Assembly (NCBI RefSeq): GCF_015864575.1
Contig: NZ_JADYWW010000001.1
Coordinates: forward strand, 1,821,719-1,885,718
Length of the DNA stretch: 64,000 nucleotides
DNA from: Salinibacterium sp. SWN248
GTDB lineage: Bacteria; Actinomycetota; Actinomycetes; Actinomycetales; Microbacteriaceae
Reading direction: 5' to 3'
Part shown: positions 12,229 to 29,960 of the stretch, piece by piece
Layout of the letters: each line of letters starts with the position of its first letter
Position numbering within the stretch: the stretch's first letter is position 1
Made by a program: the position numbers and the translations under genes
The notes under the pieces: model-generated
What the model was told of the DNA's origin: nothing
Databases searched by the model: none
The model's input: only the letters and a program-made list of their open reading frames with translations

Positions 12229-12684
12229 ATGCCGGTGAACCGAACTACCAGCCGTGTGCTGTTGTTCGACCGCGAGCAGCGCTTCTTGCTTTTTCTGACG
12301 AAAGCGCCGGATACAAGCGGTGTCGCGCGCTGGCTGACGCCGGGTGGCGGCGTGGACCCGGGGGAGTCACACCACCAAGCGGCACTACGCGAACTTGAAG
12401 AAGAAACCGGACTTGTTATCGAGGATCTCGGTGCTCCCGTGTGGGCGCACGACTTCGTGGTGGAGTGGGATGCCGCTGATCATGACACCGGTCACGCCGA
12501 GTTCTACCTCGCTCACACGGATGCCTTCGAGCCGTCGCAAGAACAATGGACAGCCGACGAACGCGTCGACGTGTTGGCGCACCGATGGTGGACCATCGAT
12601 GAGTTGGCCGCCACATCCGATCGTTATGAGCCCGCCGAGCTTGTCGGCGTCATTCGAACGCACCTTCAGGAGATGAACCGATGA
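12229..12684 (+). CDS. Nudix hydrolase
   Basis: This 151-residue protein has a full Nudix box at about residues 40-62: G-G-V-D-P-G-E followed by R-E-L-E-E-E-T-G-L, matching G-x5-E-x7-R-E-x2-E-E-x-G. The glutamates of R-E-x-x-E-E bind the metal that activates water. Nudix enzymes cleave a nucleoside diphosphate linked to another moiety; the substrate cannot be read here. The C-terminal W-W-T-I-D-E-L is typical of the fold. It overlaps the next gene by ATGA and follows the atypical SDR by 10 bases. Confidence 0.9.
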   Translation: MPVNRTTSRVLLFDREQRFLLFLTKAPDTSGVARWLTPGGGVDPGESHHQAALRELEEETGLVIEDLGAPVWAHDFVVEWDAADHDTGHAEFYLAHTDAFEPSQEQWTADERVDVLAHRWWTIDELAATSDRYEPAELVGVIRTHLQEMNR

Positions 12685-13166
12685 GTCGTCCACTACCGCA
12701 CTACTCGGTGCCCGATGTCGAGTACTTGAATGAAATTGAGTTCGACACCATCACCAATGATGATGCTGTCGCGCTGGGGCTGATTGCCGTACAGGTAATT
12801 CAGGAATGGGATCTCAATCTCGCAGTTGAAATCGTTCTCCACGGTGACGTTGTCTTCAAGGCGAAGCTGAAGTCGACAAACGCAGACAACGACCCCTGGC
12901 TGGCGGGAAAAGCTGCAGTTGTGAACCATTTCGGCGAAGCGTCGCTCGTGGTCAAGCTGCGCCACCTCGCTGCCGGTACGCCGTTTGATGAACGAACGGA
13001 TGTCGACCACGACAGGTACAAGGCTCACGGTGGATCGATTCCGCTGTGGGTCGACGGCGCCATCATCGGCACAATGACCATGTCGGGGGAGCCGGACGCT
13101 ATCGATCACGAAGCCGCTGCTGAGGCGCTGGCGAGGTTCGTCAGCAGCCGTAATCCGAGTTTTTAG
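12681..13166 (+). CDS. UPF0303/GlcG-HbpS-like protein
   Basis: This 161-residue cytoplasmic protein starts at ATG 12681, overlapping the Nudix stop. It shows G-L-I-A-V-Q-V-I-Q-E-W-D-L-N near residue 35, K-A-A-V-V-N-H-F near residue 76 and G-G-S-I-P-L-W-V-D-G near residue 115. This is the pattern of UPF0303 proteins, a branch of the GlcG/HbpS (heme-degrading-like) fold. Members of the wider family bind heme or small cofactors, but the role of this branch is unsettled. It is last in an apparent SDR-Nudix-UPF0303 operon. Confidence 0.8.
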   Translation: MSRPLPHYSVPDVEYLNEIEFDTITNDDAVALGLIAVQVIQEWDLNLAVEIVLHGDVVFKAKLKSTNADNDPWLAGKAAVVNHFGEASLVVKLRHLAAGTPFDERTDVDHDRYKAHGGSIPLWVDGAIIGTMTMSGEPDAIDHEAAAEALARFVSSRNPSF

Positions 13167-15408: not shown

Positions 15409-16398
15409 ATGATCACTCGCTCGATAACCTCACGCACAGCACTCGCTTTGTCGCTGGGGGGAATTCTCATCCTCTCCGCGTGTGCGTCAGGCGCTGCCGA
15501 CGACACGGCGACCGCTACCGCGACGCCGAGTATCGAGCCGAGCGCTGCAGCGTCTGCGATCGACATCCCGGATGCCTGGTCTGGCGTCATCGACGCCACT
15601 GCCATTCCGCTCGGAGACGACCGCACCTCCACCTCCCCCGCTGTCGACTATCTGTACTCCTGCAAGACCGACTTCAGCGGGCGCGGACCCGTGAACGGCG
15701 GACCGTGGATCGACTACGACGCTGGCACGTGGGATGCCACGACAAAGGACACCGTCGAGGGCGCCGTCTCGTGGCCACAGGCCTATTACGAGGAACAGGT
15801 CGGCCACGACACTCGCACCATCCTGACTGCCAATGTGCCGACCGAGCAAATGACCGGCACGTTCCCCATCGCCGATACCGACCCGGCAAAAGAATTCGAC
15901 CGCAACCCCAACGAGATTGACGAGAAGCTTGTTGAGCTCACTCTTAGCGTCGCTCCCACCGTTGCCGCCGAGCCAAGCTGTGTTGCGATGGGGGCCGTTG
16001 GAGTGCTCAAAAATGGCGTCTACCTCTATAACGCGGTGGATGCCTCGGGCGGGGATGCGGTCGCCCACGAAACCCAAGACCTGTGTGACGGGCATCCGGA
16101 TGGCGGCGATTATTACCATTACCACGGTGTGCCGTCGTGTCTCTTGAATGCCGCCCCTGAGACCGGATCGACCCTCGTCGGCTACGCCCTTGACGGTTTC
16201 GGCATCTACATCGAGCGCGACTCGAACGGCAATCTCCCCGCCAACGCTGACCTCGACGAATGCCACGGCCGCACCAGCACGGTGCTTTTCGACGGTGTTG
16301 AGCAGGAGATGTACCACTACAGCGCCACGATTGAGTTTCCGTTTACGGTCGGATGCTACGTCGGCGACCCTGCACCCGTGCCGTCACACGAGCACTGA
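15409..16398 (+). CDS. YHYH-domain lipoprotein
   Basis: This 329-residue protein has a lipoprotein signal (residues 1-25, lipobox L-S-A-C) and an Ala/Thr-rich linker. The remainder is a YHYH-type domain: D-Y-Y-H-Y-H-G-V-P-S-C near residue 227, L-V-G-Y-A-L-D-G-F-G-I-Y, D-E-C-H-G-R near 286, and Y-H-Y-S-A-T-I-E-F-P-F-T-V-G-C-Y near the end. The clustered His, Tyr and paired Cys suggest extracellular metal or cofactor binding; the family's function is not established. A related lipoprotein is at 26885. It faces the GntR gene, with 29 bases between stops. Confidence 0.85.
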   Translation: MITRSITSRTALALSLGGILILSACASGAADDTATATATPSIEPSAAASAIDIPDAWSGVIDATAIPLGDDRTSTSPAVDYLYSCKTDFSGRGPVNGGPWIDYDAGTWDATTKDTVEGAVSWPQAYYEEQVGHDTRTILTANVPTEQMTGTFPIADTDPAKEFDRNPNEIDEKLVELTLSVAPTVAAEPSCVAMGAVGVLKNGVYLYNAVDASGGDAVAHETQDLCDGHPDGGDYYHYHGVPSCLLNAAPETGSTLVGYALDGFGIYIERDSNGNLPANADLDECHGRTSTVLFDGVEQEMYHYSATIEFPFTVGCYVGDPAPVPSHEH

Positions 16399-17868: not shown

Positions 17869-18758
17869 ATTCCGCGGACTCCCCCGCCGCCCCAGATTCC
17901 GCCCCACAAACCACGCGGGTTGAAGCCTCTCGCCAACTCCAACAGCAACAAGAAGTGCGCGATTCGGTGAACCAGCGAGGGCCGTCCCGTGGCTTCGCTT
18001 GGTTCAGCCTCTGGAGCGCTCTGATGGCAGCGAGCTATATCGGCGTGTTTCTTTTCGCATTTTCCGTGAGCATCGGCACAGCCGGCGACAGCAACCCCGA
18101 CAAGTTCTCGCAGACATCGCTACTCCTCGTACCAATACTGGCCTTCACCACGATGACCACGGGCACCCGTGAACGGTTCGGCATCCGAAGAGCACTACCG
18201 CGAGCAGTATGGATTCCCTTGGCCCTCGCGATCATCGCGATGACCTTTCTGTCGGGTCTGTCGGTGTTCGACGTGCCCTACTCCCCGTGGCTCATCGCAC
18301 TCGTCGTTCTCGCCGTCTTCGTTCCTCTGGCCGCACCTGCCATAGCTCAACTGATCCGGGTGCCACGTTCACGCACCCCGGCGGGCCGCAGCCACGAACC
18401 GCTCAGCACACCCGTGCGCTGGAACACAGGGATCATGGGAGCGGTAGCGGGCTTGCTTATCTCATTCGGCACCGTTCCGATCGTCTCAGCACTGGTGATG
18501 ATCGCGGCGCTCGCGGGCATCGCGTTCACGTACGTGCTGAACGAATCTGCGTGGGTCTTGCCCCGCGTCGGTTTCGAATGGGGCTGGATACAGTGGACTG
18601 CCTTCGGCATCACCACGAGCACGCTCTTTGCATTTGCGATACTCGCTCCGCTGGCACAGTCCCCATCCCTCGCGGCAACGATAGCTGCCGGAATCGCGGT
18701 CTTTCTCGTCATGCTTGCGGCTTCCGCGCTGCCTGCGCACCGAGACGCACGTTCATGA
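17859..18758 (+). CDS. Multipass membrane protein in winged-helix operon
   Basis: I start this 299-residue protein at ATG 17859, which sits in the centre of a palindrome; the frame opens upstream at TTG 17826, but that lies in the promoter. Residues 1-45 are polar, Gln- and Pro-rich and probably cytoplasmic. About seven hydrophobic helices follow. A soluble loop with R-V-P-R-S-R-T-P-A-G-R lies in the middle. No family recognised. The stop overlaps the ATG of a winged-helix regulator (ATGA), so the two form an operon in which the regulator probably controls its own expression. Confidence 0.7.
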   Translation: MESDSADSPAAPDSAPQTTRVEASRQLQQQQEVRDSVNQRGPSRGFAWFSLWSALMAASYIGVFLFAFSVSIGTAGDSNPDKFSQTSLLLVPILAFTTMTTGTRERFGIRRALPRAVWIPLALAIIAMTFLSGLSVFDVPYSPWLIALVVLAVFVPLAAPAIAQLIRVPRSRTPAGRSHEPLSTPVRWNTGIMGAVAGLLISFGTVPIVSALVMIAALAGIAFTYVLNESAWVLPRVGFEWGWIQWTAFGITTSTLFAFAILAPLAQSPSLAATIAAGIAVFLVMLAASALPAHRDARS

Positions 18759-19054
18759 AACAGCATCCACGTCACCAGCTCAATGATGCGTTTCTTACTC
18801 CGATACGGCTCTCGCTGATGGCCGCGCTCGGCCCTAGGAACGAGATCGACTTCGCGACCCTGAAAGCGTTGCTCGAAGTCGAGGACTCGGCTCTCAGCAA
18901 AGCGATCAGCTATCTTGCGGATGCCTGCTACGTAAAAGTGATCAAGGGAACGGTCGGCAATCGTCCACGCACGTGGGTCACCTCGACGGCATCCGGGTAT
19001 CGCGCGTATCAGCAGCACCTGCTGGCATTGCGAGCGATCACAGAGCAGGGCTAG
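18755..19054 (+). CDS. Winged-helix transcriptional regulator
   Basis: This 99-residue protein starts at ATG 18755, overlapping the membrane-protein stop. L-T-P-I-R-L-S-L-M-A-A-L (about residues 14-25) begins the fold. D-S-A-L-S-K-A-I-S-Y-L is the recognition helix. V-K-V-I-K-G-T-V-G-N-R-P-R-T-W-V forms the wing. This is the small MarR/ArsR-like winged-helix family often encoded with a membrane protein. The palindrome at 17849-17868 is its likely site. There are no cysteines placed for metal sensing. Confidence 0.85.
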   Translation: MKQHPRHQLNDAFLTPIRLSLMAALGPRNEIDFATLKALLEVEDSALSKAISYLADACYVKVIKGTVGNRPRTWVTSTASGYRAYQQHLLALRAITEQG

Positions 19055-19210: not shown

Positions 19211-19900
19211 ATGCCACCCCGCGACTCGCAATCCTCCCCAAACGCATCATCCGGCGAAGACCTCACGGTGAAGCAGCAGCGCGATGCGCGCCGGGCCACA
19301 AAAGTCGCCGCGCTAAAAAAGAAACAAGCCGCCGAGAAGCGTCACCGTGTCATCGGTATCGTCATCAGCAGCGTCGCCGCGGTAGGCGTCCTAGCGTTGG
19401 TCATCGTAATGGTGGTGGCGAACGGAACTCCGCGAACTAGCCCCGAAGCCATCGAGATCGACGGCGTGCAGAATTATCCGAATCTGGTCGCCGGTCATGT
19501 TGAGGGCACCGTCGATTACGAGCAAAGCCCGCCGGTGGGCGGTGAGCACGCATCCGTGTGGCTGAATTGCGGTGTGTACACCGAGCCAGTGCCGAACGAA
19601 AACGCCGTGCACGCTCTTGAGCATGGTGCCGTGTGGGTGACGTACGACCCGGAGCAAATCTCGGGTGACGAACTGGAAGCGTTGCAGGATGCAGTTCCGT
19701 CGACCTATTCAGTGCTCTCGCCCTTCGAGGGCCTTCAGGCACCCATCGTGATTTCTGCGTGGGGAAACCAGGTTGAACTTGACGGGGCAGATGATCCCCG
19801 TATGCAGGACTTCGTTGACAAGTTCTGGCAGGGCGGCGAAGCACCTGAAATTGGGGCTTCGTGCTCCGGCGGAATCGACGGCGGCGGACGCATCGCATGA
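19211..19900 (+). CDS. DUF3105 membrane-anchored protein
   Basis: This 229-residue protein has a basic cytoplasmic N-terminus (about residues 20-45, with lysine-rich K-K-K-Q-A-A-E-K-R), one membrane helix (about 47-70) and an extracytoplasmic domain. That domain carries V-D-Y-E-Q-S-P-P-V-G-G-E-H near 105 and W-L-N-C-G-V-Y, then A-V-H-A-L-E-H-G-A-V-W-V-T-Y near 137. This is the DUF3105 signature, with several His, Glu and Cys suited to metal binding. It overlaps the following DUF305 gene by ATGA, so the products are coupled. Function is not established. Confidence 0.88.
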   Translation: MPPRDSQSSPNASSGEDLTVKQQRDARRATKVAALKKKQAAEKRHRVIGIVISSVAAVGVLALVIVMVVANGTPRTSPEAIEIDGVQNYPNLVAGHVEGTVDYEQSPPVGGEHASVWLNCGVYTEPVPNENAVHALEHGAVWVTYDPEQISGDELEALQDAVPSTYSVLSPFEGLQAPIVISAWGNQVELDGADDPRMQDFVDKFWQGGEAPEIGASCSGGIDGGGRIA

Positions 19901-20556
19901 CCGACGGCGACGGCGGTTCGCCACGTCACCCCTGGCTCCGCTTAAGCGCCATGGCGATCGCAGCGCTGCTGCTGGTTGGAGTCGGCGTTCTCGCTGGGCA
20001 AAAGTTGTTGCCCGCTGAATCCTCGGATCCCTTGACGACGAGCGCCGAAGCCGGTTTCGCGCGCGACATGCAGACGCACCATCTGCAGGCTGTCGACATG
20101 GCGATGATCATTCTGGAAAAGAGCGAGAATCAAACCATACGCACCTTGGCCTATGACATTGCGACGGCGCAGGGCCAGCAAGCGGGACAAATGTTCGCGT
20201 GGCTCATCATGTGGAATTTGCCGCAAGCCTCGAGCGAACCTGCGATGACGTGGATGCTGGATGACGGCGAACACGACTCTCACGGTACCTCGGATTCCGA
20301 CTCCTCGACCGCGATGACAATGCCCGGCCTCGCGACGTACGACCAGATGGAAGCTCTTAGAACGAGCACCACCGACGCTGACGCCATGTTTCTTGAGCTC
20401 ATGATTGCCCACCACGCGGGCGGTGTCGACATGGCCGAGGGTCTTCTCGAGCGGTCGACGAACGATGTAGTGACGTCGTTGGCCGCGGGAATGGTTGCCG
20501 CGCAAATGAGTGAGATCAACTACATGAACGAGTTGCTCGCAGGTCTTGAAGGATAG
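19897..20556 (+). CDS. DUF305 membrane-anchored protein
   Basis: I start this 219-residue protein at ATG 19897, overlapping DUF3105. A membrane helix (about residues 16-36) anchors a DUF305 domain. It holds two paired-histidine motifs: T-H-H-L-Q-A-V-D-M-A near 66 and A-H-H-A-G-G-V-D-M-A near 181, with many methionines between. The duplicated ferritin-like helices with His/Met suggest binding of a soft metal such as copper outside the membrane; that is an inference from composition. A second DUF305 gene is at 27805. It converges on the ABC permease gene with three bases between stops. Confidence 0.88.
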   Translation: MTDGDGGSPRHPWLRLSAMAIAALLLVGVGVLAGQKLLPAESSDPLTTSAEAGFARDMQTHHLQAVDMAMIILEKSENQTIRTLAYDIATAQGQQAGQMFAWLIMWNLPQASSEPAMTWMLDDGEHDSHGTSDSDSSTAMTMPGLATYDQMEALRTSTTDADAMFLELMIAHHAGGVDMAEGLLERSTNDVVTSLAAGMVAAQMSEINYMNELLAGLEG

Positions 20557-20559
20557 AAC

Positions 20560-22311
20560 TCAGACTCCACGGCGACGAAACAGCACCCACGCGATCGCTA
20601 GGCTTCCGGCAGCCCACAGAAACAGCGCCACCATGCTCGCGCCGGGTGGAAGCTGCAAAATATTTCCATACTGAAACCACGGCTGGAAGGTATTCGGGCC
20701 CAGCGTTTCCGCTGCGTCGCGCCCCGACGGGAATACTCGACCAATGTTAGTCAGCCAGACAAGCGGGGTGTCGACGGTTATGCGTTCCATTTGGCTCGTC
20801 AGCGTCGACACGACGACGAAGATCGTCGCCAAGGCGAAAAGTGCACCGGAGGCCGAACGCGCGATCATACCGACACCGCATCCGAGTGCCGCGACTAGCC
20901 CGAGCGCAATCGTCCCTTTGGCGATAGAGATCCATACGATGCTCGCTGACAAAGTGGCGGGGAAACCTTGGTCCTGCTGGATGGGCGTCGCCACTATCGC
21001 AGCCAGCAGTAACGCGATTGCCCCTACAGCCATCGCTGAGGTGACCGCGATCCCGGTTTTCGCCGCCAACATCCAACCGCGTAGCGGTACCGCAGCTAGC
21101 GCCGGGCGAATGTTGCCTGTAGCAAAATCTGAGGTTGCGATAGTCGCGCCAAAGGCTGCGATGAAGAATTGGCTCAGAGCCAGCCCACCAGCTATTGCTG
21201 TCATCTGCTCGTCAAAGGTCTGCGACGTTAGGTCCCACGCCGTAATTGGCGACACAAGGATGTCAGCTGGGATTCTTGCTAGTGCCCAGCGCCACGCCAA
21301 GAAAACCATCGCCCCCGCACTCAACGCCAGCAGCCATCGCGAGGACGGCAAGGTAAATGCCTTCAGCGCTTCTGATCGGACTACTCCGGCAAAGCTCAAT
21401 CCGCGGGCGGCGCCCGCAGCGCCTACCGTTGACCGCGATGCGCGCGACGCGCGGACTTTTCGCGAGACTTCGAGGTGCACCGACCGTCGGACGAATATGG
21501 CGATTGCAACGACGAGGAGAAGCGCTGCTCCAGACACAAGTACTACGAAGCCCGTGAACGGCTCCAGTTCCGAAGCGAGCGTCCCCTCTAATGCGAAGGG
21601 CTCTGCCGGTGCTCGCGTAGTGAGCGCTTGAAGCGCGCTGGCCGGGAGCAGCTCCGCGAGCCGAGGCACCCAGGATCCTCCGAGATAGAAGAGCGTGCTC
21701 GGCATCAACAAGATGATCCCCACGAAAAAAATTGCGGCCGACACTGCTGATCGCGCAAGCGCACCGAATGCAACGCCGAGAACCGCGAAACATGCAGCGC
21801 CCGCGACGACGCTGATCAACAACTCCGCCGAGCGATCGAGGCCGGGCACTGTATAACCACGCGATGTCAGCGTGATGGATGCCATCCAGCCGGCGACAGC
21901 CGTCCCCGCAGCCGTAGAAATAGCGGAGAGGCCAATGCTCGGAACGGTCTTCGCCACGATCAGCATCACTCGGGATGGCACTGCCGCCAATGATGCTGCC
22001 AACGAGTCGTCCGTGTACTCCGAGGTTATGGCGATGAGACCGAGCGTCGCCGACAGAACTGCCAGCGGAAGCGCACCCACTGAGATCGATTCGAAAAGTA
22101 TCGAGGTGCCATCGGTGTTCAGATCAGTTCCGACAATCAGCGGCACGAACAGCACGCGCACCGTTGCCAGCACAATTGGCAGGAGGAACATCAGCACCAC
22201 GATGAACCGCGGTGGACGAAGAGACCAGAGCTTGAGTGACTCCGAACGAACAACACCCCAGGCCCGAGTGAGCCTCTTAGTCTCGACTCCGCGTGCAACC
22301 GCGGAACTCAC
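20560..22311 (-). CDS. ABC exporter permease, two permease halves fused
   Basis: This 583-residue protein has about twelve membrane helices. It consists of two similar halves, each opening with a V-R-S-E-(S/A)-L-K segment, at about residue 21 and again near 310. This indicates fusion or duplication of an ABC-2-type permease. Between the halves is a charged cytoplasmic linker rich in R and A (about 280-305). It overlaps the upstream ATPase gene by ATGA, so one ATPase and one double permease make the exporter. The substrate is unknown; drug or lipid export is common for this type. Confidence 0.85.
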   Translation of the reverse strand: MSSAVARGVETKRLTRAWGVVRSESLKLWSLRPPRFIVVLMFLLPIVLATVRVLFVPLIVGTDLNTDGTSILFESISVGALPLAVLSATLGLIAITSEYTDDSLAASLAAVPSRVMLIVAKTVPSIGLSAISTAAGTAVAGWMASITLTSRGYTVPGLDRSAELLISVVAGAACFAVLGVAFGALARSAVSAAIFFVGIILLMPSTLFYLGGSWVPRLAELLPASALQALTTRAPAEPFALEGTLASELEPFTGFVVLVSGAALLLVVAIAIFVRRSVHLEVSRKVRASRASRSTVGAAGAARGLSFAGVVRSEALKAFTLPSSRWLLALSAGAMVFLAWRWALARIPADILVSPITAWDLTSQTFDEQMTAIAGGLALSQFFIAAFGATIATSDFATGNIRPALAAVPLRGWMLAAKTGIAVTSAMAVGAIALLLAAIVATPIQQDQGFPATLSASIVWISIAKGTIALGLVAALGCGVGMIARSASGALFALATIFVVVSTLTSQMERITVDTPLVWLTNIGRVFPSGRDAAETLGPNTFQPWFQYGNILQLPPGASMVALFLWAAGSLAIAWVLFRRRGV

Positions 22312-23216
22312 TTCTCCGATCCCTGCCGGTATTCGACACTCGAATCGGTGAGCTGACGATATGTCTCTTCGAGGGATTCCACCTGAGTGCGAAGCTCAAT
22401 CAGCGGAATACTCAATCGAGCCGCCAGCAAGCCGACTTCTTCGGCGGTCGAACCCTGAATGACCAGTGCGTCGCGCTCCTCAACCACCCGCGCCCCGGAC
22501 GCGGCGAGAGGCACGATCAATTCGCGCGCGTGAGGGCTCCGCACAACTACGCGTTCAACGCCCTGGAGGCGCGCAAGCTCTGGCAGCGGAGAATCAGCGA
22601 GCACCTTCCCGCGCCCGACGATCACCACGTGGTCGGCGGTCAGCGCGACCTCACTAATCAAATGCGAGGAAAGCAGCACTGTGCGCCCCTCCGCCGCAAA
22701 GTCGCGCACCAGCTCCCGAAACCACATCACGCCATCGGGATCTAAGCCGTTCACCGGCTCATCGAACACGAACACCTCGGGATCGCCGAGCATTGAAGCC
22801 GCGATGCCAAGGCGCTGGCGCATCCCCAGCGAATACCCTCCAATGCGACGAGAGGCCACACCGCTGAGCCCAACTTCTTCGAGCACGAATTCGACTCGCT
22901 CGTTAGATATCCCATGAGTGAGGGCAAGCGCCCGCAGGTGATCGAAGCCGGAGCGCCCCGGATGCGCGTTGCGAGCATCCAAGAGTGCGCCCACCTGAAA
23001 CAGCGGATTCTTTATCTTCCGATAAGGTTCGCCACTGACGAGAGCTTCCCCTGAATCCGCCGCTTCGAGGCCGAGCAGTATGCGCATCGTCGTGGTCTTG
23101 CCCGAGCCGTTAGGCCCCAGAAATCCTGTCACACGTCCAGACGCAGCCGTGAAACTGAGGTCATCGACCGCGAGCTTGTCGCCGAAACGTTTCGAGAGGT
23201 GACGAAACTCGATCAA
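22308..23216 (-). CDS. ABC transporter ATP-binding protein
   Basis: This 302-residue ATPase has Walker A G-P-N-G-S-G-K-T-T near residue 34, the signature Y-S-L-G-M-R-Q-R near 132 and Walker B V-F-V-F-D-E-P near 150, followed by N-G-L-D-P-D-G. A C-terminal extension of about 80 residues (from L-P-E-L-A-R) is typical of DrrA/CcmA-type drug and antibiotic exporters. It is coupled to the double permease downstream. The divergent neighbour encodes a short UvrA paralogue, an arrangement that recalls the DrrA-DrrB-DrrC daunorubicin resistance genes. Confidence 0.93.
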   Translation of the reverse strand: MIEFRHLSKRFGDKLAVDDLSFTAASGRVTGFLGPNGSGKTTTMRILLGLEAADSGEALVSGEPYRKIKNPLFQVGALLDARNAHPGRSGFDHLRALALTHGISNERVEFVLEEVGLSGVASRRIGGYSLGMRQRLGIAASMLGDPEVFVFDEPVNGLDPDGVMWFRELVRDFAAEGRTVLLSSHLISEVALTADHVVIVGRGKVLADSPLPELARLQGVERVVVRSPHARELIVPLAASGARVVEERDALVIQGSTAEEVGLLAARLSIPLIELRTQVESLEETYRQLTDSSVEYRQGSEK

Positions 23217-23375
23217 GCGCGGCCCCTATCGTGACGGATCATCACCTTAGAATCCCATAGCGGGAAGCTGAGAACTAGGGTCTCTCCACAATTGCCCGTA
23301 CTGTCGCAATAATGGTCACAAGCATCCGCGAACCCGCAGAGCCGCGACATCCGCACCGCTAGGGAGGCACCCACG

Positions 23376-25766
23376 ATGGCCAGTACAAGCAACCCCAGCT
23401 CCCCCGGTTCTCACGCGGCCGATAGCCACGACGTCATTCGGGTGCGAGGCGCTCGCGAGAACAACCTCGCTGACGTCAGTGTCGAGATCCCGAAACGTCG
23501 CCTCACGGTATTCACTGGCGTATCGGGCTCAGGCAAGAGTTCGCTCGTGTTCGGTACAATCGCTGCCGAGTCGCAGCGCATGATCAACGAGACGTACAGC
23601 GCATTCTTGCAAGGCTTCATGCCCTCGCTCGCCCGCCCCGATGTCGATGTGCTTGAGGGGCTCACAACGGCGATCATCGTTGACCAGGAGCGCATGGGCT
23701 CGAACGCCCGCTCCACCGTCGGCACCGCGACTGATGCAAACGCCATGCTGCGTATCGTCTTCAGCCGCCTCGGCGATCCCCATGTCGGCTCGCCACAAGC
23801 CTTCTCCTTCAACGTTGCCTCTATTTCGGGCGCAGGCGCTGTCACTTTTGAGAAGGCTGGCGTCACGACGAAAGAGCGTCGCGAGTTCAGCATCACCGGC
23901 GGCATGTGCCCGACGTGCGAAGGTCGCGGCAGCGTTAACGACATCGACCTCACGCAGCTCTACGACGACAGTAAGTCGCTCGCCGAGGGCGCGTTGACCA
24001 TCCCCAACTACACCGCCGATGGCTGGATGGTGCGCATCTTCACCGAGTCAGGCTTCCTCGATCCCGACAAGCCCATCAAGAAGTACACCAAGACTGAGTT
24101 GCACGACTTTCTCTACAAAGAGCCGGTCAAGGTCAAGATGCAGTCGATCAACATGACCTATGAAGGGTTGATCCCCAAGATTCAAAAGTCGATGCTGTCG
24201 AAAGACCGCGAAGCGATGCAGCCCCACATCCGGGCTTTTGTCGATCGCGCGGTCACGTTCACGGCCTGCGCCGATTGCGGCGGCACTCGACTCAACGAGG
24301 GTGCCCGAGCATCCACAATCGCTGGAATCAATATTGCGGATGCCTGTGCCATGCAGATCAGCGACCTGGCCGAGTGGGTGCGCGGGCTGAACGAACCATC
24401 CGTCGCCCCGCTGCTCGAAGCGCTGCAGCAGACGCTCGACTCGTTTGTGGAGATCGGCCTCGGCTATCTCTCCCTCGACCGCCCCGCCGGAACCCTCTCC
24501 GGCGGCGAAGCGCAACGCACCAAGATGATTCGCCACCTCAGTTCGTCGCTCACTGACATCACCTACGTTTTTGATGAGCCAACCATCGGTCTCCACCCGC
24601 ACGATATTCAGCGGATGAACGAGCTCCTGTTTCGCCTGCGCGACAAGGGAAACACCGTGCTCGTGGTTGAGCACAAGCCAGAAACGATCTCGATTGCCGA
24701 CCACATTATCGACCTTGGCCCTGGTGCCGGCACCGAGGGCGGCCAGATTTGCTTCGAGGGCAGTTTCGACGAGCTGCGCCAGAGCGACACCGTCACCGGC
24801 CACCACATTGACGACCGAGTCTCGGCCAAAAACGAAGTGCGCTCCCCCACCGGCATCATGGAGATTCGCGGCGCCGACTCCCACAATCTTAAGAACGTGG
24901 ATGTCGACATCCCGCTGGGCACCCTCGTCGTCGTGACGGGCGTTGCCGGTTCGGGCAAGAGCTCATTGATTCACGGATCGGTGGTGCCCCGCGACGGCGT
25001 TGTGTCCGTCGATCAGGTCGCAATCAAGGGATCACGCCGCAGCAACCCCGCCACGTACACCGGGATGCTCGAGCCCATTCGCAAAGCATTCGCCAAGGCC
25101 AATGGCGTCAAGCCCGCCCTGTTTAGCGCCAACTCCGAAGGCGCCTGCCCCAATTGCAACGGCGCCGGCGTCATCTACACCTACCTCGGCGTCATGGCCA
25201 CCGTCTCGACCCCGTGCGAGGTCTGCGAAGGAAAGCGCTTCATGGCTTCCGTGCTGGAGTACACGCTCGGCGGACACGACATCAGTGAAGTGCTCGGGAT
25301 GTCTGTCGCCGAGGCCGAAGCTTTCTTCGGCGAAGGCGAGGCACGCACTCCCGCGGCCCACGCCATCCTCGACCGGCTAGTTGATGTCGGGCTGGGCTAC
25401 CTGCGCCTCGGGCAACCACTGCCCACGCTCTCGGGCGGAGAACGTCAACGTCTCAAGCTCGCCACCCAAATGGCTGACAAGGGCGACATTTATGTTTTGG
25501 ATGAACCGACCACTGGCCTGCACTTGGCCGATGTTGAGCGGCTCCTCGGCCTGCTCGACCGCCTCGTCGATTCGGGAAAGTCCGTGACTGTCGTCGAGCA
25601 CCATCAGGCGGTCATGGCCCATGCAGACTGGATCATCGATCTCGGTCCTGGTGCCGGAAACGATGGCGGATCGATCGTTTTCGAAGGCACTCCGGCAGAT
25701 CTCGTCGCCGCCAAGTCAACCCTTACGGGCGAACACCTCGCGGCGTATGTGGGCGATGGCGGGTAA
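23376..25766 (+). CDS. UvrA paralogue without UvrB-binding domain (UvrA2/DrrC-like)
   Basis: This 796-residue protein has two ABC ATPase units: Walker A V-S-G-S-G-K-S-S near residue 50 with L-S-G-G-E-A-Q-R, and V-A-G-S-G-K-S-S near 527 with L-S-G-G-E-R-Q-R and D-E-P-T-T-G-L-H. Zinc-binding Cys pairs are C-P-T-C-E-G near 180, C-A-D-C-G-G near 298 and C-P-N-C-N-G with C-E-V-C-E-G near 590-620. It is about 150 residues shorter than housekeeping UvrA, missing most of the UvrB-binding insert of the first half, as in UvrA2/DrrC. Such proteins protect DNA against intercalating or alkylating drugs. GTG or other starts are unlikely; ATG 23376 follows GGGAGG. Confidence 0.9.
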   Translation: MASTSNPSSPGSHAADSHDVIRVRGARENNLADVSVEIPKRRLTVFTGVSGSGKSSLVFGTIAAESQRMINETYSAFLQGFMPSLARPDVDVLEGLTTAIIVDQERMGSNARSTVGTATDANAMLRIVFSRLGDPHVGSPQAFSFNVASISGAGAVTFEKAGVTTKERREFSITGGMCPTCEGRGSVNDIDLTQLYDDSKSLAEGALTIPNYTADGWMVRIFTESGFLDPDKPIKKYTKTELHDFLYKEPVKVKMQSINMTYEGLIPKIQKSMLSKDREAMQPHIRAFVDRAVTFTACADCGGTRLNEGARASTIAGINIADACAMQISDLAEWVRGLNEPSVAPLLEALQQTLDSFVEIGLGYLSLDRPAGTLSGGEAQRTKMIRHLSSSLTDITYVFDEPTIGLHPHDIQRMNELLFRLRDKGNTVLVVEHKPETISIADHIIDLGPGAGTEGGQICFEGSFDELRQSDTVTGHHIDDRVSAKNEVRSPTGIMEIRGADSHNLKNVDVDIPLGTLVVVTGVAGSGKSSLIHGSVVPRDGVVSVDQVAIKGSRRSNPATYTGMLEPIRKAFAKANGVKPALFSANSEGACPNCNGAGVIYTYLGVMATVSTPCEVCEGKRFMASVLEYTLGGHDISEVLGMSVAEAEAFFGEGEARTPAAHAILDRLVDVGLGYLRLGQPLPTLSGGERQRLKLATQMADKGDIYVLDEPTTGLHLADVERLLGLLDRLVDSGKSVTVVEHHQAVMAHADWIIDLGPGAGNDGGSIVFEGTPADLVAAKSTLTGEHLAAYVGDGG

Positions 25767-25799
25767 GACAAACCGCGCACTACACACTCCTGTTGCGGT

Positions 25800-26204
25800 C
25801 TACCAGCTATAGATTCGCGGAATGATCGCGTGGCGCGCCGACTCATCGGGTCCAGGAAACACCACGAAGATGGGCAAATGGTCAGGGTCTCGGCCCTCGA
25901 GGACCTCAATCCCATCGAGCTGTTCACGACGGACGTGGCTCGACTCTCGACGCATCGCATCTTCACACTGTTGCAATTCTTCCAGGGTGTCGGCACTCCA
26001 AATGAGGTACTGGATACCCACTGAGCCGAGTACGCGACTCGGCTGCGCATGCTTACCGCGAAGGTAGAGCTCATAGTTCTCAGGGCCAACCAACAGCGCT
26101 GCCGACTCATCAAGAATTGAGCATGTGAGCCCGAGGAGATCGCAATAGAACGCGACCGATCGATCAAGATCTGAAACAAATGCGACGGCGGATGAGAGAC
26201 GCAC
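25800..26204 (-). CDS. VOC-family (glyoxalase/bleomycin-resistance fold) protein
   Basis: This 134-residue protein opens with V-A-F-V-S-D-L-D-R-S-V-A-F-Y-C-D-L-L-G-L, the standard first beta-alpha-beta unit of the vicinal-oxygen-chelate fold. It repeats the unit in its second half (G-I-Q-Y-L-I-W-S-A-D, then F-V-V-F-P-G-P-D). Members include glyoxalases, dioxygenases and drug-sequestering proteins; the metal ligands are not clear here, so binding rather than catalysis is possible. It sits beside the UvrA paralogue and ABC exporter, hence a possible role in toxin or drug tolerance. Confidence 0.82.
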   Translation of the reverse strand: MRLSSAVAFVSDLDRSVAFYCDLLGLTCSILDESAALLVGPENYELYLRGKHAQPSRVLGSVGIQYLIWSADTLEELQQCEDAMRRESSHVRREQLDGIEVLEGRDPDHLPIFVVFPGPDESARHAIIPRIYSW

Positions 26205-26429
26205 GATAGCTCCTCACTGAACGATGGTGAGCTTCGCCGATTGGCGCGCTCACTCTGGCGGTGAGTAGTGGCACCAGCAGTTCGCTCGCTATTCAAGGTA
26301 CGCTCACGATGCCCGAGCAGCGAGGCTCTTCACCGTTTCCTCAGGCGGCGTTCAGATTCGATGCCGCCCGAGACGCTGTCGACGCCGAAGCCGTACGCTT
26401 AGTGCACGCCACCTAGCTGGGGAGAGATC

Positions 26430-26831
26430 GTGACATTTTTTGAGTCCATCGCCACCGTATTCCGCAAGTACGCGGACTTTACCGGGGTCGCAAGCCGCCC
26501 CGAGTACTGGTGGTTCGCGCTCTTCTCCTTCATCACGTCGGGAATCGCTGCTTCGCTTGACCCGAGCAGTGGCAACGATTTTGGTCACATGGGAGCAAAC
26601 TTCGGGCTTTCAGTGGGTCTGAGCGCCGCCTGGTCGCTCGCTCTCCTCGTTCCTCAACTCGCCGTCACCGTTCGCCGTTTGCGCGACACTGGCCGCAATT
26701 GGACGAACATTTTCTGGATACTGGTTCCGATCGCCGGTGCGATCGTTCTGATCGTTTTCCTGACTCAGCCGAGCGTTACGCAGCAGAGCGTTGCCGGGCA
26801 AGTTCCCCCGCAGGTCGCAGAGACTTCATAA
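26430..26831 (+). CDS. DUF805 membrane protein
   Basis: This 133-residue protein starts at GTG 26430 with GGGGAG 6 bases upstream. It shows the DUF805 pattern: F-R-K-Y-A-D-F-T-G-V-A-S-R-P-E-Y-W-W-F-A-L-F near residues 11-32, and P-Q-L-A-V-T-V-R-R-L-R-D-T-G-R-N-W near 73-90. Three membrane helices are predicted, at about 28-45, 62-80 and 93-113. The family is widespread, with no settled function. It is a single gene, followed 53 bases later by the YHYH lipoprotein. Confidence 0.9.
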   Translation: MTFFESIATVFRKYADFTGVASRPEYWWFALFSFITSGIAASLDPSSGNDFGHMGANFGLSVGLSAAWSLALLVPQLAVTVRRLRDTGRNWTNIFWILVPIAGAIVLIVFLTQPSVTQQSVAGQVPPQVAETS

Positions 26832-26884
26832 GGAATCCATAGACTTCTGGGCCAACATGGCTCTCCTCACGATCAGGAGAAACC

Positions 26885-27808
26885 ATGAATCGACTTGTCA
26901 CAACCGTGGCCACTGCAAGTGTTCTGCTGCTAGCGCTTGCCGCCTGCACTACTGCTTCAGTAGAACCCGCCGAAACCGCCGAAGCAACCCCAGAATCGAC
27001 CGAGACGGCTACAGCCTCGACAGCCACCTTTGCGGCATCCACGGGTGATTGCGACGCCATGGCTGCGACACTCCGTGATGTCGAAAGTGCGAACTCTGAG
27101 CTCGTGGACCCCGAGCTCACCGCTGTCTGTGATGGCGACACCCTCACCATCAGCAGCAACAGCATCCCCGACTATCTCTACATCGCGACGACACCGGGCT
27201 CGCCCAAGGTGTCCGAACTCACTATGACGATCCCCGTCACCCCCACGGAAGCTGACGAACCCGGCTCCGTGCCGTACCTCGGTGCTCTCGGAGTTGCCGT
27301 CAATGGAGTTCCCATCTACGGGCCGACCGAAGGCACCGGTGGAGACGTTCAATCCCTAGAAGGCGCGCTCTCGGAATGCGGTAGCCACAGCGGCCCCACT
27401 GACTTCCACATCCACTGGTTTGGTTACGCCGATGGGGTCGACTGCCTCTACGACGCTGACGAAGTTGAAACCGGTGAATCACTCGTCGTTGGATGGGCTG
27501 CCGACGGCTACCCCATCATGTCCGGAGTCGTGTGCTCAGATGACGACTGCAGCGAGGTTGTTCAGCTCACGAGCAGTTGGCAACTCACCGACGAATCTCA
27601 ATTCGCCACTGACACTTGGGCGGCCCACAGCTACGTTGAAGGCTCCGGTGACCTCGATGAGTGCAACGGACGCGTCGATAGCGACGGCCAGTACCGTTAC
27701 TACTCCACCACCACGTTCCCTTACTTCCTCGGCTGCTACTACGGCGATGTGGCAGATGACGCTTTGAGCGGCAACAACGCCGCAGCTCCCGGTGGCGGCC
27801 CTGCGTGA
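26885..27808 (+). CDS. YHYH-family lipoprotein with FHIH variant
   Basis: This 307-residue protein has a lipoprotein signal (residues 1-22, lipobox L-A-A-C) and an Ala/Glu/Thr-rich linker. Its domain is related to that at 15409: G-V-P-I-Y-G-P-T-E-G near 140, F-H-I-H-W (about 171) where YHYH would stand, W-A-A-D-G-Y-P-I-M, C-S-D-D-D-C-S, D-E-C-N-G-R near 260 and Y-Y-S-T-T-T-F-P-Y-F-L-G-C-Y. Paired cysteines fit extracellular disulfides. The stop overlaps the DUF305 gene by GTGA, so this and DUF305 are made together and are probably functional partners. Confidence 0.83.
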   Translation: MNRLVTTVATASVLLLALAACTTASVEPAETAEATPESTETATASTATFAASTGDCDAMAATLRDVESANSELVDPELTAVCDGDTLTISSNSIPDYLYIATTPGSPKVSELTMTIPVTPTEADEPGSVPYLGALGVAVNGVPIYGPTEGTGGDVQSLEGALSECGSHSGPTDFHIHWFGYADGVDCLYDADEVETGESLVVGWAADGYPIMSGVVCSDDDCSEVVQLTSSWQLTDESQFATDTWAAHSYVEGSGDLDECNGRVDSDGQYRYYSTTTFPYFLGCYYGDVADDALSGNNAAAPGGGPA

Positions 27809-28446
27809 TCCCCGCGACTGAACGCGCGACAAACGCCGTAAATCCGGCCCGCCGTAACTTTCTCGCGTTCGGGTTACTCGCCCTCACCGGCACAGCGCTC
27901 GCCGCCTGCACAACCGCCGCCGCTGACGACGACGACGACACCAGCGCAGCTGAAGAAACGCCTAACGACACCGATATCGGTTTCTTCACGGACATGGCTC
28001 TACACCACGAACAAGCCCTCGCCATGTGCCAACGCGTGCTCGGTCGCGACAACGGCGACTCTGTGCAGTCGCTCGCCGCCGACATCCTTCAGAATCAATC
28101 GTTCGAACGGGGCGTCATGCACACGTGGCTCACGGTGTGGGGCGAGAGCACTGCGCCACCAGAGACGGTGATGGCTTGGATGGGAATGGAGATGCCCGCA
28201 GCCGAGATGACGGGTCTCGCCACTGACGAACAGATGAGCTCCCTCTCGACCACAACCGGGATGGACCAAGGGCGACTCTTCTTGAACCTCATGCGCGCGC
28301 ACCACGTCGGCGGTGTCCACATGGCGGCCTATGCGAACGAGCACGCCGCGGTGAGCACAGTGCGGGCAACAGCCGAGCGGATGGATGTCATCCAAACCTA
28401 TGAGATTGGGATCATCGACCAGCTGCTCTCGACCACCTACCTCTAA
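27805..28446 (+). CDS. DUF305 protein with twin-arginine lipoprotein signal
   Basis: This 213-residue protein starts at GTG 27805. Its signal peptide reads A-R-R-N-F-L-A-F-G, then a hydrophobic run ending A-L-A-A-C (residues 15-38). That gives both a Tat-like pair and a lipobox, so it may travel folded through TatAC and then be lipidated. The DUF305 domain has L-H-H-E-Q-A-L-A-M near 70 and A-H-H-V-G-G-V-H-M near 172, with many Met. It may bind metal outside the cell; this is inferred. Like the DUF305 at 19897, it is coupled to a gene upstream (here YHYH, there DUF3105). Confidence 0.87.
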   Translation: MIPATERATNAVNPARRNFLAFGLLALTGTALAACTTAAADDDDDTSAAEETPNDTDIGFFTDMALHHEQALAMCQRVLGRDNGDSVQSLAADILQNQSFERGVMHTWLTVWGESTAPPETVMAWMGMEMPAAEMTGLATDEQMSSLSTTTGMDQGRLFLNLMRAHHVGGVHMAAYANEHAAVSTVRATAERMDVIQTYEIGIIDQLLSTTYL

Positions 28447-28506: not shown

Positions 28507-29190
28507 ATGCTTTCGAATCCAAAAATAGCCGGAACACAAGCGTCCGCTGATGACTGCCTGTGTTCACCTTTCGTGACTGCGCTTGACGTTTCGGGCGCCG
28601 CTATCTCGGTCATCGGCGAACACGGTAACCAATCGACGGTGTGTGTGAGCGGCCGCCTCGCTGGCCGACTGGATGCTCTCCAGTTCGAACTCGGCGAGGG
28701 TCCAGGCCTGCAAGCACTCACTACCCGATCCCCTGTTCTCTGTTCCGACCTCGCTCACGTCTCCGACTCGGCCTGGCCCGTGTTTCTGGGTGCCGCACGG
28801 GAGCTCGGCGTTGGCGCTATTTTTAGTTTCCCGATGATGCTGGGCACCGCGGTAGTCGGAGTGGTCGATTTGATCACCACGACACCTCGACCCGTTGACG
28901 CCGAGTTCATCTCGAGGGCCCAAGCGCTGACCCGTGATGTGGCGCTCACTGCCGTCGAACGAGCACTCTCGGCCGCGCAACAACACAGCTCGCCCGAGTC
29001 TGATCAATCACCGGCGCTGCGACGCGAAGTCCACCAGGCGACAGGCATCATCATTTCGCAGCTGGCGCTCTCGGCACCGGATGCGTTTGCCCGACTACAG
29101 GCCCACGCATTCTCGACTGGGCGCTCCATCGACGATGTAGCACGTGACATAGTTACGCGCGTGCTTGAGTTCGATCCCCTCACCGAATAA
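28507..29190 (+). CDS. GAF-ANTAR regulator, first of two
   Basis: The first ~160 residues of this 227-residue protein read as a GAF sensor domain, with L-G-E-G-P-G-L-Q-A and A-I-F-S-F-P-M-M-L-G. The last ~55 residues are an ANTAR RNA-binding domain, with R-E-V-H-Q-A-T-G-I-I-I-S-Q-L, D-A-F-A-R-L-Q-A-H-A-F and S-I-D-D-V-A-R-D-I-V. ANTAR proteins dimerise on paired hexaloop RNA hairpins and stop termination or bury sites. Compared with the next gene, the ANTAR start is less canonical (H-Q-A-T-G instead of E-Q-A-K-G). The ligand is unknown. The two genes lie 29 bases apart, suggesting one operon. Confidence 0.88.
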   Translation: MLSNPKIAGTQASADDCLCSPFVTALDVSGAAISVIGEHGNQSTVCVSGRLAGRLDALQFELGEGPGLQALTTRSPVLCSDLAHVSDSAWPVFLGAARELGVGAIFSFPMMLGTAVVGVVDLITTTPRPVDAEFISRAQALTRDVALTAVERALSAAQQHSSPESDQSPALRREVHQATGIIISQLALSAPDAFARLQAHAFSTGRSIDDVARDIVTRVLEFDPLTE

Positions 29191-29219
29191 CCACCTCCCC
29201 CGCAGGAAAGAAGCTTCAG

Positions 29220-29960
29220 ATGGATGGAACAACCCGCGAGGCCCAGATCAGCGCCGCATTCGTCACTGTTGCGGAAACGCTCACTGTCGACCATGACCTG
29301 GTCGACGTGCTTCACACGTTTGTCGAGCGTTGCGCAGAGATCGTTCGGATGGATGCTGGCGGGCTCGTTCTGGTTAACGACGCTGGTGAACTTCAACTCA
29401 TGACATCCACGAACGAAGCGGCCGTCATGCTCGAGAGTATGCAACTTGAGGCAGCCGAAGGACCATGCCTCGATTGTTTCCGCACCGGAAATGCGGTGGC
29501 GATCGACAATATTTCAGCGTCCGAGGCGTCGACCGAATTTCGTGCCGCCGCCGTTGCCCAAGGCTTCAACTCGCTGTTGTCGATCCCCATGAAGGTCCAA
29601 GGCGCAGTTATCGGCACCATGAACCTCTTTCGTGCAACGACCGAAGCCGTCAGCTCTCGAGACGCTGCGGTAGCTCAAGCGCTCGCGGACGTCGCGACGA
29701 TCGGCATAACCCACGAACGCGCACTCCAGCACGCTCACCTCGTCGAGGAACAGTTGCACAACGCTCTCAACAGCAGAATTGCCATCGAACAGGCGAAGGG
29801 CGTCGTCGCAAACGGCTTGTCCCTCAGCATGGACGATGCCTTCGCACTCCTGCGCAAGTATTCCCGCGACTGCAACCGAACGATTCGGACAACCTCCGAA
29901 ATGGTCAGTCGGCGCGAGATTACGGTGCAGCAGATTGTCGAAGCCGCAACCAAGAGATAG
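29220..29960 (+). CDS. GAF-ANTAR regulator, second of two
   Basis: This 246-residue protein has a GAF domain at about residues 20-165 (E-A-A-E-G-P-C-L-D-C-F and L-L-S-I-P-M-K-V-Q-G). A canonical ANTAR follows: S-R-I-A-I-E-Q-A-K-G-V-V-A near 185, then M-D-D-A-F-A-L-L-R-K-Y-S-R, then I-V-E-A-A. It has no DNA-binding or kinase domain, so it is a one-component RNA antiterminator. The two cysteines C-L-D-C at the GAF pocket could be redox-sensitive; this is a guess. The transhydrogenase operon starts about 100 bases downstream, after an RNA hairpin that could be its target. Confidence 0.9.
   Translation: MDGTTREAQISAAFVTVAETLTVDHDLVDVLHTFVERCAEIVRMDAGGLVLVNDAGELQLMTSTNEAAVMLESMQLEAAEGPCLDCFRTGNAVAIDNISASEASTEFRAAAVAQGFNSLLSIPMKVQGAVIGTMNLFRATTEAVSSRDAAVAQALADVATIGITHERALQHAHLVEEQLHNALNSRIAIEQAKGVVANGLSLSMDDAFALLRKYSRDCNRTIRTTSEMVSRREITVQQIVEAATKR

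Follow-up and report, generated by a model that had tools for sequence, protein, structure and literature searches.

We analysed a 64,000-nucleotide window of the genome of the marine actinobacterium Salinibacterium sp. SWN248 (contig NZ_JADYWW010000001.1, positions 1,821,719 to 1,885,718) which carries two coupled gene pairs, a DUF3105 gene followed by a DUF305 gene and a YHYH lipoprotein gene followed by a second DUF305 gene (Table 1). The pairs are real, conserved and dedicated cassettes. Their products likely handle a metal outside the cytoplasm and copper is our best guess for that metal; taken together, two dedicated extracytoplasmic copper-handling cassettes are a somewhat probable reading, for which we infer both the metal and the biochemistry.

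All five window proteins of the three families (two YHYH, one DUF3105, two DUF305) exceed their Pfam cut-offs of 25 bits for YHYH (PF14240), 25 for DUF3105 (PF11303) and 27 for DUF305 (PF03713). Within each pair the stop codon of the first gene overlaps the start codon of the second by four bases, as ATGA at 19897-19900 in DUF3105/DUF305 and GTGA at 27805-27808 in YHYH/DUF305. Read by eye, the DUF3105 protein and the DUF305 protein at 19897 each have one hydrophobic N-terminal helix, both window YHYH proteins have a lipobox, and the DUF305 protein at 27805 has the sequence ARRNF followed by a lipobox. The family assignments, overlaps and extracytoplasmic signals given in an initial annotation of the window were therefore confirmed. 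Its His, Met and Cys motifs were also present as described, except that the first HH motif of the DUF305 protein at 27805 reads HHEQALAMC, ending in Cys where the DUF305 protein at 19897 has Ala.

Conservation of the two gene pairs

Among 120 genomes of the family Microbacteriaceae, this genome counted, DUF3105 is present in 57 and DUF305 in 83. A DUF305 gene lies no more than 1 kb behind 49 of 60 DUF3105 matches, with both genes on one strand, and ahead of none, an arrangement exceeding chance because the partner follows so many matches and precedes none. The 60 matches omit two DUF3105 matches below the cut-off, and fragmentary DUF305 matches are likewise omitted, one of which adjoins a DUF3105 gene scored as a miss (G044). 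In the wider phylum sample of 296 genomes, 120 carry DUF3105 and 84 carry DUF305. Adjacency was counted there for the 72 strongest DUF3105 matches with a limit of 1.3 kb, leaving out the weakest listed DUF305 rows; DUF305 follows 42 of them in 35 genomes, corresponding to 42 of the top 47 matches against none of the next 25. A high-scoring subset of DUF3105 is therefore coupled to DUF305 whereas the weaker matches tested are not.

YHYH is rare, occurring in 8 of the family genomes and 13 of the phylum genomes. The YHYH-DUF305 order is found in this genome, in another of the same genus (G082) and in three that have the phylum alone in common with it (G150, G232 and G307), while no DUF305 gene stands behind the remaining YHYH genes of either sample. 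An alignment of five cassette YHYH proteins (A1) served to scan 84,980 species, one genome from each, and we kept the best 80 of 116 relatives. After the list had been viewed these loci were split into a cassette clade of 42 (at least 42 % identity, some of them fragments) and a distant group of 38 (26-37 % identity, including L152 at 37 %, plus two short matches of 40 and 43 %). A purpose-built profile located DUF305 directly behind YHYH in 35 of 40 assessable cassette-clade loci against 0 of the 38 distant loci among these best 80 of 116 relatives (Fisher p 4e-17, a value that is no true probability because the rows are related). The contigs of L129 and L132 in the cassette clade end too soon for assessment, as does the distant L181, which stops 36 bases past YHYH. 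The adjacency claimed initially for both pairs hence extends beyond this strain, in the case of YHYH within one clade. Our literature search, with preprints and most subscription journals outside its scope, found no paper naming DUF3105 and none naming YHYH and DUF305 together.

The 35 loci come from Salinibacterium and related bacteria, from Acidimicrobiia (Ilumatobacter among them), from one metagenome-assembled genome (MAG) labelled Actinomycetes and from three MAGs assigned to Myxococcota or Granulosicoccus. A number of the cassette loci lie on MAG contigs, and the last three (L140, L148 and L149) are possibly misbinned, although L148 and L149 have 43-47 % G+C. The open DUF305 frame reaches back to the YHYH stop or beyond in 31 of 34 pairs, an observation carrying little weight because frames were read from stop to stop in G+C-rich DNA. 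Salinibacterium sp. G-O1 has two YHYH-DUF305 cassettes in the same genome, on one contig (L118 and L119).

The initial annotation had treated the DUF305 proteins of both pairs as the same partner, which is wrong. They are 30 % identical, and a tree of 93 DUF305 domains comprises three clades, one linked to YHYH (38 rows, support 100/99), one linked to DUF3105 (32 rows, 99/94) and one free-standing (23 rows, 100/98), such that each partner gene goes with its own DUF305 clade. The context of five rows (L117_1545, L044, L061, L027 and L028) was reassigned by hand from the adjacency lists, and we rely on the clade split and not on the root because long branches meet in the tree. A Cys ends the motif HHxxA-x3-C in all 38 YHYH-linked proteins and in none of the 32 DUF3105-linked or 23 free-standing ones, where the position holds Ala, Ser, Gly or Val. 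All 38 also have a twin-arginine motif (37 by a loose pattern, L141 by eye), the same pattern matching 5/32 DUF3105-linked and 2/23 free-standing proteins. The motif stands before a hydrophobic stretch and export of the YHYH-linked DUF305 by the twin-arginine translocation (Tat) route is predicted. By a simple pattern a lipobox is present in 23/23 free-standing, 10/38 YHYH-linked and 0/32 DUF3105-linked proteins. The third DUF305 gene of this genome (L110:9372-10478) encodes a free-standing lipoprotein and lies beside the gene of a DUF6153 protein.

The adjacency could reflect mere clustering of genes for secreted proteins without joint function, and the five cassette-clade loci that lack DUF305 (L124, L127, L146, L147 and L169) would fit such an explanation. 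The fixed one-strand order in 35 loci, the dedicated DUF305 clade with its unique residues and the recurrence in genomes sharing only the phylum make it very improbable. In one of the five (L127:1-999) the YHYH domain appears by eye to be in frame with RTX-like glycine-rich repeats.

YHYH partners and candidate ligands

YHYH genes have a second type of partner. Among the 38 distant loci, 18 have YHYH followed by a conserved secreted domain, alone or fused to HupE/UreJ_2, and in 18/18 of these partners a His follows the signal-peptide-like stretch, cleavage being assumed and the pattern having been made post hoc. Pfam recognises HupE/UreJ_2 in L182, L185 and a protein of this genome, the latter encoded on the minus strand behind two tandem YHYH genes (L111:7619-11786, G000:C2) and having a likely mature N-terminal His; this gene order recurs in G082 and G411. 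Histidine kinase, ApbE and ferric-reductase-like genes lie near this tandem. We viewed two plasmid-borne YHYH loci, one from Deinococcus with an adjoining HupE/UreJ gene and one from Pacificitalea lacking such a partner. At L184:4801-5319 and L186:8991-9509 a different small protein follows YHYH, again with a His past a signal-peptide-like stretch; that of L184 has no Pfam match over cut-off.

Secreted N-terminal-His domains fused to HupE/UreJ-2 have been described as anglerases, of which two (Ang-1 and Ang-2) are reported with Cu2+ Kd values of 74 and 62 nM, one also binding Ni2+ at 220 nM and the second originating from Microbacterium (PMC12537917). Anglerases belong to a family other than DUF305, and YHYH does not occur in the main text of that report (PMC12537917). 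What they have in common with the present loci is a secreted and probably metal-binding partner behind YHYH genes, this genome included; on account of the HupE/UreJ_2 fusion and the His, we place our partner domains tentatively with the anglerases. Microbacterium belongs to the same family as this genome.

In an alignment of 72 YHYH sequences, comprising the protein at 26885 and 71 of the 80 loci with the protein at 15409 outside it, His168, His175, His177 and Asp207 are identical throughout. All 39 sequences of the cassette group also have Cys165, Cys187 and His248, whereas among 33 distant rows Cys165 occurs in 2 and the other two residues in 0. The window proteins thus resemble other YHYH domain proteins in their Pfam match and in keeping three His and the Asp, but the cassette clade mostly has FHxH, carries these extra residues and usually has a DUF305 partner. 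An AlphaFold2 model of the protein at 26885 (predicted local distance difference test, pLDDT, 86.3) resembles phage and giant-virus YHYH proteins, the best at E = 2e-13, and matches no solved structure below E = 1.7; the YHYH profile searched against the PDB matched antibody chains only, at E = 0.18 or worse.

YHYH has been predicted to bind zinc through three His and one Asp and proposed as a possible tail-associated metal-dependent hydrolase in phages (PMC7824862). A hydrolase of, for instance, surface or cell-wall polymers, with DUF305 merely as its metal supplier, would agree with the invariant residues and the viral resemblance. The model reveals no recognised catalytic fold, however, and both kinds of partner, DUF305 and HupE/UreJ-type proteins, speak for traffic in metal and not for a polymer, such that we consider this role unlikely.

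DUF3105 also has invariant candidate ligands, with His96, His113, His134, His138, Glu137 and Cys218 shared by 21/21 aligned sequences. Its profile had no match in the PDB and no DUF3105 was found in viral contigs. A predicted structure was set aside, having a pLDDT of 38.3 and being built from four close sequences only.

The case for copper

Solved relatives of the two window DUF305 proteins include 2qf9 (E = 1e-39 and 2e-25) and CopM (5fej, E = 6e-9 and 4e-9). CopM is a DUF305 protein of Synechocystis (sll0788) for which a Cu(I) KD of 3.7e-16 M and a copper-sensitive mutant are reported (PMC4335983), its MxxHH peptide is described as binding Cu(II) strongly (PMC11836926), and the copper cluster curA of M. 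xanthus includes a DUF305 lipoprotein (PMC3707914). The window proteins share with CopM the DUF305 domain, extracytoplasmic location, HH motifs and detectable homology. They differ in being paired with DUF3105 or YHYH and not with CopRS, and the YHYH-linked protein differs further in its Cys and twin-arginine motif.

Plasmids provide a second line of evidence. In 15 hand-picked records, out of 89 with DUF3105, the gene lies directly before DUF305 in 11 (one has a small annotated antisense gene in between) and directly after it in 2. Genes scored as copper or oxidase-assembly genes (CopC, CtaG-type, SURF1, SCO, multicopper oxidase, ctaD, four-helix copper protein and heavy-metal ATPase) lie within 6-7 kb of DUF3105 in 12 of the 15. 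Four Rhodococcus records have CcdA and ResB upstream of DUF3105-DUF305 and CopC downstream; three of them also have a CtaG-type gene and two have ctaD. Windows of like size shifted 40 kb away on ten plasmids contained such genes in 2/10 cases versus 10/10 at the locus itself, a contrast that amounts to no statistical test because the records were hand-chosen and are related. Clusters containing CopC, CtaG, SCO and SURF1 are thus common at plasmid loci with DUF3105 and DUF305, but they are not direct neighbours of the window pairs.

Several results weigh against copper or against the pairing itself. DUF305 lies apart from DUF3105 in 2 of the 15 plasmid records, and the plasmid loci L196, L199 and L200 are without copper or oxidase genes, two of them carrying CDF or ZIP transporters. 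At 30 chromosomal DUF3105-DUF305 loci of the family, viewed by eye over 1.5 kb per side, no recognised copper gene was seen, a cystathionine-beta-synthase-like gene being present at 13. No copper family appears among 25 of 110 listed neighbours of YHYH-DUF305. One copper-repressor-like palindrome gave 15 matches versus 10.3 expected, none of them before the cassettes. The window DUF305 proteins also miss the cut-off of 90 of the CopM model NF049983 (NCBIfam), scoring 83.3 and 54.3, and HupE/UreJ-2 proteins are referred to as known nickel permeases (PMC12537917). Two-component genes near YHYH-DUF305 (HATPase_c in 5/95 and HisKA in 4/95 neighbours) hint at CopMRS; the signal was too weak and was not used.

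The cassettes may accordingly serve iron, nickel, another metal or oxidative defence. Besides the CDF or ZIP genes, the nickel permeases and the Ni2+ affinity of one anglerase, this would accord with the presence of DUF305, called ferritin-related, in the algal iron-starvation protein ISIP3 (PMC13284251). CopM, the one DUF305 protein with measured binding in the literature found, nevertheless takes copper, and copper or oxidase-assembly genes lie near 12 of the 15 plasmid loci, for which reasons another metal or oxidative defence in place of copper seems rather improbable to us.

For the copper-handling cassettes that we favour, the second gene encodes a DUF305 relative of CopM that would bind the metal at two HH motifs, with a Met or Cys after each. 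Its dedicated partner, encoded by the first gene and tethered through a membrane helix (DUF3105) or lipid (YHYH), would contribute its own invariant His, with the metal passing between the two. DUF3105-DUF305 may assist in supplying copper to cuproenzymes, cytochrome oxidase among them, and YHYH may receive or present the metal at its three-His/Asp site. The predicted Tat signal on the YHYH-linked DUF305 would imply folding in the cytoplasm before export, which perhaps controls the choice of metal.

A broader reading remains tentative and rather doubtful. YHYH could be a general extracytoplasmic copper domain with exchangeable copper-capturing partners. In actinobacteria the partner would be a DUF305 protein that contains the Cys and is exported by Tat, whereas gammaproteobacteria, Deinococcus and this genome would use an N-terminal-His domain together with a HupE/UreJ-2 permease. 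Along with the DUF3105-DUF305 pairs, these would make up a set of copper-delivery cassettes that has gone undescribed. The exchange of partners is weakened by the phylum sample, where just two of the 13 genomes with YHYH (this genome and G411) have it next to HupE/UreJ, and by G210 and G307, whose neighbouring YHYH genes are without a HupE/UreJ_2 match.

Genomic setting and significance

Table 1. Coordinates of the cassette genes and other features in the window
Feature	Position	Strand	Support and remarks
HbpS-like haem-related protein	12681-13166		upstream of the cassettes
YHYH lipoprotein, 329 aa	15409..16398	+	PF14240 68.7 bits; YHYH and DECHGR read by eye; no partner gene in window
HTH_34 winged-helix regulator	18755..19054	+	PF13601 66.3 bits; just 5' of DUF3105 gene
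DUF3105 protein, 229 aa	19211..19900	+	PF11303 152 bits; single N-terminal membrane helix
DUF305 protein, DUF3105-linked clade, 219 aa	19897..20556	+	PF03713 141.5 bits; N-terminal helix; PDB 2qf9 E=1.4e-39
ABC transporter pair and UvrA-like ABC protein	20560-25766		between both cassettes; by eye
YHYH lipoprotein, cassette clade, 307 aa	26885..27808	+	PF14240 96.5 bits; FHIH replacing YHYH
DUF305 protein, YHYH-linked clade, 213 aa	27805..28446	+	PF03713 118.1 bits; HHEQALAMC; twin-arginine motif and lipobox; PDB 2qf9 E=2e-25
Two adjacent GAF-type proteins	28507-29960		first with ANTAR and GAF (Pfam), second by eye

The whole genome contains three DUF305 genes, one DUF3105 gene and four YHYH genes, and the best named relatives of the window YHYH protein are from Salinibacterium. 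The YHYH gene at 15409, initially described as unpaired, stands alone in the window but is less lonely than it first appeared. In S. amurskyense DSM 16400 (L117), a strain with both cassettes, a relative 89 % identical over 226 amino acids ends about 250 bases upstream of a DUF3105-DUF305 pair, and G082 lacks both the DUF3105 gene and a YHYH protein of this type. PHSC20C1 (L116) weighs against a link, having DUF3105-DUF305 with no YHYH within 3.8 kb before the DUF3105 domain.

The copper-requiring aa3 oxidase encoded in the window had been offered as meaningful context and was rejected as a conserved neighbour outside the genus. DUF3105 shares a contig with the oxidase gene COX1 in 26 cases and lies less than 60 kb from it in this genome only. 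YHYH-DUF305 is close to COX1 in G082 too, but the distance is 0.78 Mb in G150 and 1.4 Mb in G232, and in G307 the two are on different contigs. The idea of an oxidase connection gains otherwise, since plasmid copies of DUF3105 are often near oxidase-assembly genes. As regards the metal-relay system put forward in the initial annotation, several lines point to a metal, most often copper, whereas neither a single shared DUF305 partner nor the aa3 oxidase as context has held up.

Three domain families with roles unknown or barely known thereby gain a concrete, testable setting, among them DUF3105, so widespread in the phylum and yet unnamed in the literature found. The clade-specific Cys and twin-arginine motif offer a sharp handle for mutagenesis, and the tie of YHYH to two unrelated metal-associated partners gives a way to approach the function of a domain that also occurs in phages, giant viruses and diatoms. 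The recurring pairings suggest metal-handling machinery that has gone unrecognised, probably for copper.

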